NCBI RefSeq assembly: GCF_015714715.1
Contig: NZ_WAHS01000001.1
Location: forward strand, 558,001-622,000
From: Aestuariivirga litoralis
GTDB taxonomy: Bacteria > Pseudomonadota > Alphaproteobacteria > Rhizobiales > Aestuariivirgaceae
Direction: 5' to 3'
Length of the DNA: 64,000 nucleotides
Part shown: positions 39,513 through 41,456 of the stretch, in pieces
Layout: every line of letters begins with the position of its first letter
Position numbering within the stretch: the stretch's first letter is position 1
Made by a program: the position numbers and the translations under genes
Notes under the pieces: generated by a model
What the model saw: the letters and a program-made list of their open reading frames with translations, nothing else
Databases searched by the model: none
What the model was told of the DNA's origin: nothing

Positions 39513-39603
39513 TTTCCAGCCGATACAACGCCTAACGACTTCGTGATTGATCTTGATTTGCTCCCCGCGCGTAAAAGCTTGATATTGGGGCAAGGAGAGA
39601 TTC

Positions 39604-40236
39604 ATGGCGCAAAAGGTTTTGGTTCACCGGCTCTATGTCCGGATATTCCATTGGCTGAACGCCATTGCGATGTTCATGATGATCACCAGCGGCTGGCGCA
39701 TCTACAATGCCTCGCCGCTTTTCGACTTTTCATTTCCCGATGCGATCACGTTAGGCGACTGGCTGGGTGGCGCGCTGCAATGGCACTTCGCGGCCATGTG
39801 GCTGTTTGTTATCAATCTCGGCGTTTACATCGTGCTCGGACTGGCCACAGGGCATTTCCGCCGGAAGTTCCTGCCGCTCAGCCCGCGCGCATTGGTGCAT
39901 GACGTGAATGACGCGCTGCATCTCAAACTGGCCCATGATAGCCACGACTATAACGCCGTGCAAAAGCTGTTCTATATCGGCATTACACTGGTGATGATAC
40001 TCACCTTCATTTCTGGCCTGGCAGTTTGGAAGTCGGTGCAGTTCCAACTGATCGGCCATCTATTCGGAGGCTATGAGGGCGCGCGGCTGGTGCATTTTGC
40101 CGGCATGAGCCTGATCTGCGCTTTCGTCGTGGTGCATCTGGCGCTGGTGCTGCTCGTGCCTTCGACGCTCCTTCCCATGATCACGGGTAAGGGCAAAGCG
40201 TTCCCCAAGGATGTGGAGAAAAATCATGTTGCTTAA
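39604..40236 (+). CDS. cytochrome b-type membrane subunit (cytochrome b561/Ni-hydrogenase cyt-b-like)
   Basis: A 210-residue protein with four membrane spans (about 12-32, 60-82, 120-142 and 162-190). Four His residues in or near spans, H16, H61, H164 and H178, fit two b-type hemes. The fold is that of the N-terminal cytochrome b/b6 domain that passes electrons from quinol to periplasmic enzymes. It overlaps the molybdopterin oxidoreductase gene by 11 bases, so the two very likely form one enzyme. It differs from MsrQ, which is a six-span protein with another motif set. CAAGGAGAG precedes the ATG. Confidence 0.87.
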   Translation: MAQKVLVHRLYVRIFHWLNAIAMFMMITSGWRIYNASPLFDFSFPDAITLGDWLGGALQWHFAAMWLFVINLGVYIVLGLATGHFRRKFLPLSPRALVHDVNDALHLKLAHDSHDYNAVQKLFYIGITLVMILTFISGLAVWKSVQFQLIGHLFGGYEGARLVHFAGMSLICAFVVVHLALVLLVPSTLLPMITGKGKAFPKDVEKNHVA

Positions 40237-40984
40237 GCGCAAAGAGCCGAAGCTGTTGCTGCCCCGCACAACGGAGGTTATCAGTCTTGAGCGCCGCTTG
40301 TTCATGGGCAAGGCGCTGTCGCTCGGTGCGCTCACCATGCTCACCGGTTGCAATGTGGCCGACGATGGTCAGGCACAGAAGATCCTCGATGTCATGTCGA
40401 AATGGAATGACAAGGCGCAGGCCGCTCTGTTCAACCCGAACCGCATGGCGCTGACTTACTCGGAAGCAGAGATCACCGAGCCATTTCCCTTTAACGCCTA
40501 TTATTCCGAAGACCAGGCACCTGAGGTGAAGGAGGAGGGCTACAAGCTCGAACTTTCCGGCCTGATCGACAAGAAAGACCCTTGGACGCTCGACAAGCTT
40601 CGTGCCCTGCCGCAGGAAAGCCAGATCACAAGGCATATCTGCGTGGAAGGCTGGAGTGCCATTGGCAAATGGGGCGGCGTGCCGCTCGGCAATTTCCTGC
40701 GCATGGTGGGGGCTGATCTCACCGCCAAATATGTCGGCTTCAAATGCGCGGATGATTATTACCAGTCGATCGACATGGCCTCGGCACTGCATCCGCAAAC
40801 CATCATTGCACTCACCTGGCGTGATCAGGTGCTGCCGCGCAAATATGGTTTCCCGATGAAGGTGCGTATCCCCACCAAGCTCGGTTACAAGAATCCTAAA
40901 TACATCACGGCCATGTATGTGACCAATGATTATCCCGGTGGCTATTGGGAAGACCAGGGTTACAATTGGTATGGCGGTTCGTGA
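40226..40984 (+). CDS. periplasmic molybdopterin-dependent oxidoreductase (sulfite-oxidase fold)
   Basis: A 252-residue protein. The N-terminus has a twin-Arg pair (R23-R24 in ERRLFMGK), a hydrophobic stretch and a lipobox-like LTGC at 39-42, so it is probably exported by Tat and may be lipid-anchored. The sulfite-oxidase-type molybdopterin domain shows RHICVEGWSAIGKWGGVPL with the Mo-ligand Cys139, and SGLIDKKDPWTL. GGAGA lies before ATG 40226. With the cytochrome b partner it should be a quinol-linked reductase or oxidase; MsrP-like sulfoxide reduction is one possibility, not proven. Confidence 0.88.
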   Translation: MLLKRKEPKLLLPRTTEVISLERRLFMGKALSLGALTMLTGCNVADDGQAQKILDVMSKWNDKAQAALFNPNRMALTYSEAEITEPFPFNAYYSEDQAPEVKEEGYKLELSGLIDKKDPWTLDKLRALPQESQITRHICVEGWSAIGKWGGVPLGNFLRMVGADLTAKYVGFKCADDYYQSIDMASALHPQTIIALTWRDQVLPRKYGFPMKVRIPTKLGYKNPKYITAMYVTNDYPGGYWEDQGYNWYGGS

Positions 40985-41103
40985 ACCTCGCGAACCATCA
41001 CAGCTTCGTGTTGTGAGTTTATTTGAGTCCTGAACTGAGCTCAGCCAAGTTGACAAGATGGAACAATGAAGTTCCGCAAATTCTAACTCCCAGGAGAAAC
41101 CCC

Positions 41104-41385
41104 ATGATCAAGTCAATTTTTGCTGCCGCCGTTCTTGTTGCTGCATTCTCTGCTCCGGCTTTCGCCGAAGACATGATGAAGTGCGACGACGCATCCATGA
41201 AGATGATGCATGATGAAATGGACAAGATGGGTGGCTCGATGGCCAAGCAGACCGATGCCATGAAAAAGGGCATGGAAATGGCCAAGGACAACATGATGAA
41301 GGCCGGCGAAGCGATGAAGGCCGGCAATATGGACGAATGCTCCAAGCAGATGGGCATGGCCAAGACCAACATGATGATGAAGTAA
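41104..41385 (+). CDS. exported Met-rich peptide, MXKDX-pentapeptide-like
   Basis: A 93-residue precursor with signal peptide MIKSIFAAAVLVAAFSAPAFA and a mature part of 72 residues that holds 20 Met, many Lys, Asp and Gly, and two Cys. Repeating units such as MAKDN, AMKKG and MMKAG resemble the pentapeptide MXKDX repeat family. CAGGAGA precedes the ATG. A terminator follows. It lies 119 bases after the molybdoenzyme gene. Met-rich periplasmic peptides can bind Cu(I) or act as sacrificial oxidant sinks that are re-reduced by a Met-sulfoxide reductase; both are inferences here. Confidence 0.82.
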   Translation: MIKSIFAAAVLVAAFSAPAFAEDMMKCDDASMKMMHDEMDKMGGSMAKQTDAMKKGMEMAKDNMMKAGEAMKAGNMDECSKQMGMAKTNMMMK

Positions 41386-41410
41386 GCAGGGCAGACCTGC
41401 ACAATCTGAA

Positions 41411-41439
41411 AGGGCGGCCCGTTTGGTGCCGCCCTTTTT
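41411..41439 (+). terminator. rho-independent terminator after the Met-rich peptide gene
   Basis: AGGGCGGC and GCCGCCCT form an 8-bp stem with a 9-base loop, followed by TTTTT (41435-41439). It separates the redox gene set from pirin, whose start is only 18 bases further on. Confidence 0.9.
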
Positions 41440-41456
41440 GTTGCTATATAGGCAAC

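Follow-up and report, generated by a model that had tools for sequence, protein, structure and literature searches.

According to the available text of a 2020 review, MsrP is the sole molybdenum-dependent sulfoxide reductase that does not belong to the DMSO reductase family, and the enzymes of group 1A (YedY, 35 kDa) and group 1B (YedY-like, 30 kDa) have different cytochromes (PMC7759655). Perchlorate islands carry sigF/nrsF, yedYZ and mrpX, as described in the accessible part of a paper that cites the Azospira work (PMC4623255), and in Brucella an MXKDX peptide and MsrQP homologues make up the HOCl-induced bcrXQP, which is run by an ECF sigma/anti-sigma pair (PMC8315932, in the sections available). 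In uropathogenic E. coli, the OrhKR-controlled genes c3566-c3568 encode a 'cytochrome B', an MsrP-like protein and a small Met-rich peptide, and deletion mutants of c3566 and c3567 showed weaker growth under tert-butyl hydroperoxide; the authors regard the C3566-C3567 pair as homologous to MsrPQ, with identities of 27.6 and 23.1%, the 27.6% being relative to MsrP (available text of PMC8550376). In the part accessible to us, nSor of Acidocella is described as YedY-like and as paired with a di-haem cytochrome b similar to that of formate dehydrogenase (PMC10715153).

The window, which is the whole 64-kb stretch of DNA analysed here, contains a set of three genes encoding a b561-type cytochrome, a molybdoprotein and a Met-rich exported peptide (Table 1). 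A sequence-only reading of the same DNA had given the coordinates, gene order, strand, an 11-base overlap of the first two genes and a 119-base gap before the third, all of which were found to be correct, the overlap (40226-40236) applying to ATG 40226 as the start of the molybdoprotein gene. It had also placed a strong terminator behind the set, and the hairpin found there, followed by a T run, has a folding energy of -25.5 kcal/mol (z -5.2) that none of 200 shuffles equalled; it is absent from the output of a simple terminator scan. The block GTGATTGATCTTGATTTGC was recognisable in most of the ten aligned genus loci, as judged by eye and not by statistics, and is possibly a promoter or operator. 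Ahead of the peptide gene (40985-41103), where the window has the inverted repeat TCACA...TGTGA, several genus loci show a TCACA/TTNGTG block that is similar to it by eye, and the upstream and intergenic blocks could be sites of a common regulator. The sigma-70 promoter scan returned one promoter against 1.4 expected, and Rfam returned four tRNAs and nothing else on the 64-kb window. The neighbouring genes that were identified are luciferase-like, pirin and SDR genes.

Table 1. Positions of the genes and sequence elements of the set in the window.
Feature	Position	Strand	Remark
b561-type cytochrome gene	39604..40236	+	210 aa
Molybdoprotein gene	40226..40984	+	252 aa; alternative ATG at 40211
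Met-rich peptide gene	41104..41385	+	93 aa
Twin-arginine pair (R23, R24) to lipobox C42 of the molybdoprotein	40292..40351	+	17-row alignment
Hairpin then T run (presumed terminator)	41408..41440	+	fold energy
Inverted repeat TCACA...TGTGA in the molybdoprotein-peptide gap	40998..41016	+	
Block GTGATTGATCTTGATTTGC (GTGATNGAA..) upstream of the b561 gene	39543..39561	+	by-eye alignment

The molybdoprotein matches PF00174 (E 2.9e-27), a molybdopterin oxidoreductase family of the sulfite-oxidase fold, and its nearest solved relatives by both sequence and fold are 1xdq (E. coli YedY/MsrP) and 1xdy, the structure model having a mean pLDDT of 76 with a poor N-terminus. The cysteine region ITRHICVEGW is invariant except for one position in 17 aligned rows, and its RHICVEGW aligns with RMRCVEAW of YedY/MsrP; we take this motif to be unlike the C-x-GN-R pattern of sulfite oxidases, and no sulfite dehydrogenase model scored above about 35 bits. 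A tree was built from 136 rows, its bootstrap still short of full convergence. Eight rows labelled MsrP-type lie behind a 100/100 branch apart from the window enzyme (one of the eight, L135, was tested by HMM), and the b561-linked rows include the genus as a 98/99 group. A canonical MsrPQ system was rejected on the score against the MsrP equivalog NF003767 (87 bits, below the cut-off of 207), on a partner that is not MsrQ and on this placement in the tree. The own genome holds one match of the molybdoprotein family at E 1e-10. R23, R24, L39, G41 and C42 are shared by all 17 aligned sequences, and the molybdoprotein is accordingly predicted from its sequence to be a membrane-tethered, Tat-exported lipoprotein, in agreement with the Tat export and lipobox proposed earlier. 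To our knowledge, no activity is known for the YedY-like b561-linked branch. By analogy the molybdoprotein would reduce Met sulfoxide, the reductive direction being suggested by its similarity to MsrP and by the phenotype in uropathogenic E. coli.

The membrane partner matches PF01292 (E 1.2e-24, 87.5 bits) and is not of the MsrQ type (NF003831, PF01794), as the sequence-only reading had it when naming a cytochrome b-type protein in place of MsrQ. His 16, 61, 164 and 178 are invariant in 17 rows and probably ligate two b haems, and the protein is presumed to be the quinol-side electron donor. It also scores against formate dehydrogenase gamma and hydrogenase cytochromes, below their cut-offs. 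The own genome gave no MsrQ (NF003831) match at E 1e-10. MsrQ-like matches were found in three of the ten genomes bearing the set, at 131.6 bits in G024, 128.7 in G027 and 123.5 in G036, of which one exceeds the MsrQ cut-off of 130 bits.

The mature peptide has 72 residues with 20 Met, two Cys and no Trp, Tyr or Phe, matching the exported peptide with 20 Met in about 72 mature residues noted before; the Sec-type signal was judged from the sequence and its cleavage site after AFA is a manual reading. 'Units like MAKDN', also claimed for it, proved overstated, as M.KD occurs just once, with three units under a looser pattern, so that the window peptide is rich in Met without clearly being a repeat protein. 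The NCBIfam MXKDX model TIGR02953, at its cut-off of 41 bits, did not list the window peptide as a match and found only one of the 11 members of the peptide family (E 0.19), and on this HMM result a plain MXKDX repeat protein was rejected as the identity of the peptide; neither Pfam nor NCBIfam gave a family for it. Loose MXKDX-like units number three in the window peptide and one or two in the other ten members. Because the window peptide also has three, the loose pattern alone fails to separate the peptide families, whereas the HMM does separate that of the window from MXKDX.

Within this family of 11, both Cys are invariant and each mature chain has 14-20 Met, the positions of which drift, with 40 alignment columns holding Met in some member and three in all. 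Such drifting positions with kept Met content are as expected for a bulk oxidant sink. The AlphaFold model has three helices in the mature part (overall mean pLDDT 67), and a fold search of the PDB with the peptide returned nothing at E 0.001, the best hit being at E 2.3. In a three-helix bundle both Cys would lie at the same end, which makes a Cys27-Cys79 disulfide plausible. The family has members in 15 of 61 relatives including the own genome, all within the genus, and outside the genus in 2 of 385 genomes of the class as weak matches. The window peptide belongs to a new two-Cys, Met-rich family outside the MXKDX model that occupies the sink slot, and for which no published description was found in the open-licence literature. 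A sacrificial oxidant sink is proposed as its role.

Conservation was surveyed in 61 genomes, of which 37 belong to the genus, the own genome included. A close enzyme was present in ten of the 61, the own genome and nine others at 61-74% identity, and in all ten full genus loci (window counted) it is immediately preceded by the b561 gene and immediately followed by the gene of the Met-rich exported peptide. The wider surroundings were read for eight of them, G027 and G033 being left out. In the window and G013 the set is flanked by luciferase-like and pirin genes, in G003, G021, G022, G023 and G036 it follows a pirin gene, and in G024 it has another gene context; given this differing placement, the trio stays together beyond local gene order, and the three genes are a conserved set.

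In G002, G008, G010, G012 and G017 the peptide gene also turned up with no intact enzyme gene next to it, as did a second copy in G024. The sequence read around it, in some cases only a short contig, showed neither an enzyme gene nor a b561 gene in G008 (L169), G010 (L171), G012 (L172), G017 (L168) and the second site of G024 (L170). In G002 (L175) the peptide lies beside a remaining 38-residue match to the end of the enzyme. These six genomes, counting that second copy, suit an explanation in which the peptide is a sink repaired by another reductase while the pair repairs envelope proteins in general in the manner of MsrPQ, and SurA and Pal are named as MsrP substrates in the available text of PMC7759655. 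The strong gene adjacency and an own genome without a separate MsrQ at E 1e-10 speak against such a division of labour, which we hold to be unlikely as the explanation of the set; it overlaps with recycling of the peptide by the pair, and both could be true together.

Outside the genus, a scan of GTDB contigs gave at least 583 confirmed relatives, nearly all proteobacterial by record title, and the best 80 of these, a sample that therefore leans to close kin, were examined. The b561 gene was adjacent in all 80; counting every group surveyed, it adjoined the enzyme gene in 126 of 126 loci. A Met-rich exported ORF was found in 47 of these best 80, 44 of them downstream within 800 bp and three upstream, and each of the 47 has at least three loose MXKDX-like units. 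Chance adjacency was rejected, since 44 of 80 loci with the ORF downstream compare with a background of three Met-rich exported ORFs across 641 kb of flanking DNA on the same strand; the 44 are a lower bound because the Met-rich rule misses some, among them L049 with its MXKDX-like ORF, and because three loci end after the enzyme. The survey of co-occurrence suggested with the sequence-only reading has in this way placed a Met-rich gene beside the pair in 10 of 10 genus loci and 47 of the best 80 of at least 583 GTDB relatives, so that the refuting case named there, a Met-rich gene seldom next to the pair, did not arise. This wide linkage of YedY-like, b561-paired enzymes to Met-rich peptides is new, no published account of it having been found in the open-licence literature. 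Among distant members of the branch (34-41% identical), b561 was found in 18 of 18 and a Met-rich ORF in 1 of 18, and among 385 genomes across the class there were ten others with a close enzyme, with b561 in ten of ten and a Met-rich ORF in three of ten. In one distant branch member (L173 of G058; L012) the b561 gene is clustered with genes for NrsF, an ECF sigma factor and an MXKDX-like peptide. In L018 (1468-3192, minus strand) an ORF of 574 aa has a molybdoenzyme-like domain at its C-terminal end and is perhaps a fusion like Sco3746, as described in the available part of PMC5449189.

By the rule used, 33 of the best 80 of at least 583 GTDB loci have no Met-rich ORF, as would also be seen if the pair were an oxidase of sulfite or another reduced sulfur compound that feeds the quinone pool, and the peptide an independent stress protein. 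The scores of the b561 protein below the cut-offs of hydrogenase and formate dehydrogenase cytochromes agree with an oxidase, as does the proposal for nSor in the accessible part of the Acidocella report (PMC10715153). It is nevertheless an unlikely explanation, as the cysteine-ligand motif and the fold are nearest to YedY/MsrP, the sulfite dehydrogenase models stay at their low scores, and many relatives cluster the pair with oxidative-stress regulators and Met-rich peptides.

Nineteen of the 33 loci carry instead an unrelated exported low-Met protein, hypL32 (example L032:4657-5262), which never occurs together with a Met-rich peptide in 126 loci (tblastn E 1e-6) and may be another substrate of the molybdoenzyme. 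Binding of Cu(I) by exported Met-rich peptides is known from other systems, and the peptide could itself be a copper or silver chaperone or store, binding Cu(I) by its Met and two Cys, with the pair repairing Met oxidised under copper stress. CusR-type regulators adjoin some relatives, and MsrPQ and CusF have been studied under copper stress (available text of PMC9302797). These regulators track the partner that is not Met-rich, however, being found beside hypL32 in 17 of 19 loci and beside none of the 47 Met-rich loci; the Met positions of the peptide are not fixed, and the three identified neighbours of the set include no copper gene, all of which makes a copper function rather unlikely.

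Plasmids yielded 404 records with a relative of the enzyme at E 1e-10, and since 366 of them are under 60% identical, other sulfite-oxidase-family proteins are among these matches; the eight plasmid loci read are a chosen sample of the 404. On one of them, the 6376-bp plasmid of Klebsiella variicola (L033), which is typed as mobilizable, the pair was found with an IS3 transposase; the MXKDX gene annotated there is on the opposite strand, and the ORF counted by the script is a different one. DNA like a Klebsiella plasmid copy of the pair was found in 350 of 5426 E. coli genomes, in 72 over at least 80% of that copy.

In other genomes the branch is linked to oxidative-stress regulators. Among the 47 Met-rich GTDB loci, eight have ECF/NrsF, 12 a two-component pair and 27 neither. 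The reference for the two-component pair was a Rahnella plasmid locus, and as the regulator beside C3566 of strain CFT073 is 66% identical to that of Rahnella, pairs of this type are called OrhKR-like. Neither an OrhKR-like pair nor ECF/NrsF or another regulator tested was found in the 64-kb window, and the first two are likewise absent from the ten genus loci (3-4 kb each). NrsF was not found in the own genome and a SigF-type promoter motif is absent at the b561 and peptide genes of the ten genus loci, and on these grounds control by SigF/NrsF was rejected for the own genome.

It is fairly probable, in our assessment, that the set forms a periplasmic Met redox buffer, in which the peptide is a sink recycled by a YedY-like molybdoenzyme fed by b561. 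Sec would export the peptide to the periplasm, where its Met would react with hypochlorite, peroxide or similar oxidants to Met sulfoxide. Electrons from the quinol pool would pass through the two b haems of the b561-type protein to the tethered molybdoenzyme, which would reduce the Met sulfoxide of the peptide to Met; since the sulfoxides would be returned to Met, the peptide would work catalytically. The set would then represent a YedY-like branch parallel to MsrPQ and MrpX. We infer the direction of electron flow, the reduction of sulfoxide and the peptide as substrate. Met-based scavenging, as first proposed, has remained the best reading. Several points stand against the redox buffer, namely the loci without a Met-rich ORF (33 of the best 80 of at least 583 in GTDB, 17 of 18 distant members and 7 of 10 in the class), the electron direction proposed for nSor, the scores of the b561 protein against formate dehydrogenase gamma below its cut-off, the peptide genes with no intact enzyme gene next to them, the MsrQ-like matches in three of ten and the negative result for the tested regulators in the window.

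The set probably combines a Met-based oxidant sink and a reductase of its own. If so, periplasmic Met recycling arose or was rewired twice in one fold, Met-rich sink peptides are the natural substrate of the YedY-like branch, and the substrate of the YedY-like group becomes directly testable. The pair is common, with relatives in plasmid records and E. coli genomes. As a wider and more tentative proposal, which is possible and which we would not yet call probable, group 1B-type enzymes might be a second, widespread branch of Met-sulfoxide recycling for co-encoded sinks, apart from MsrPQ and with b561 replacing MsrQ. The cassette would be mobile as a unit and its sink slot interchangeable, holding MXKDX peptides, the two-Cys helical peptide or the CusR-linked low-Met protein, and the Cys pair of the genus may add a disulfide that gives a folded, possibly sensing buffer.

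In comparison with the known systems, the set has the same order of b561, molybdoprotein and Met-rich exported peptide as C3566-C3568 of CFT073, with close homology of the first two proteins. C3567 is 49% identical to the window enzyme over 242 aa, and the tree groups it with a copy from Citrobacter among the Met-linked rows; the b561 proteins are 51-53% identical in two pieces. The b561 gene of the CFT073 assembly (L167:130-728) is annotated as frameshifted, the adjacent enzyme and peptide genes being open. The CFT073 peptide looks nearer to MXKDX, by appearance and not by HMM score, whereas that of the window is of another family with two fixed Cys; an OrhKR-like pair adjoins C3566, whereas the window set has no such neighbouring control. 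The window pair also fits, on its features, the published YedY-like group 1B, a name that reportedly goes back to Kappler 2008. It is filed there by features, showing a molybdenum subunit smaller than MsrP (252 aa, about 28 kDa estimated) with a cytochrome that is not MsrQ; the available text of the review does not name the cytochrome family, a lipobox or Met-rich peptides for this group (PMC7759655). The nSor pair is proposed as a quinone reductase, with the opposite direction of electrons, and is likened to the window pair by description and not by sequence; a Met-rich peptide is not mentioned in the accessible part of its report (PMC10715153).

MrpX-YedYZ of Azospira suillum and BcrXQP of Brucella likewise combine a Met-rich peptide, a molybdoenzyme and a membrane haem protein in hypochlorite defence, and in the parts of their reports available they are of the YedYZ/MsrPQ types by description, whereas the window enzyme and cytochrome belong to other subfamilies. 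Chlorite-dismutase neighbourhoods were searched in 249 genomes of one family, nine of which had a match, and of the ten regions read L135 alone matched the molybdoprotein. Its genes beside the chlorite dismutase score 456.6 bits for MsrP, 189.6 for MsrQ and 67.3 for the MXKDX peptide, and relatives of NrsF and ECF are also present. The window set departs from this MrpX type in all three parts: the branch of the enzyme, the membrane partner and the family of the peptide. The 'distinct version' of Met-based scavenging suggested by the sequence-only reading holds with respect to MsrPQ and MrpX, but group 1B and C3566-C3568 had already been published.
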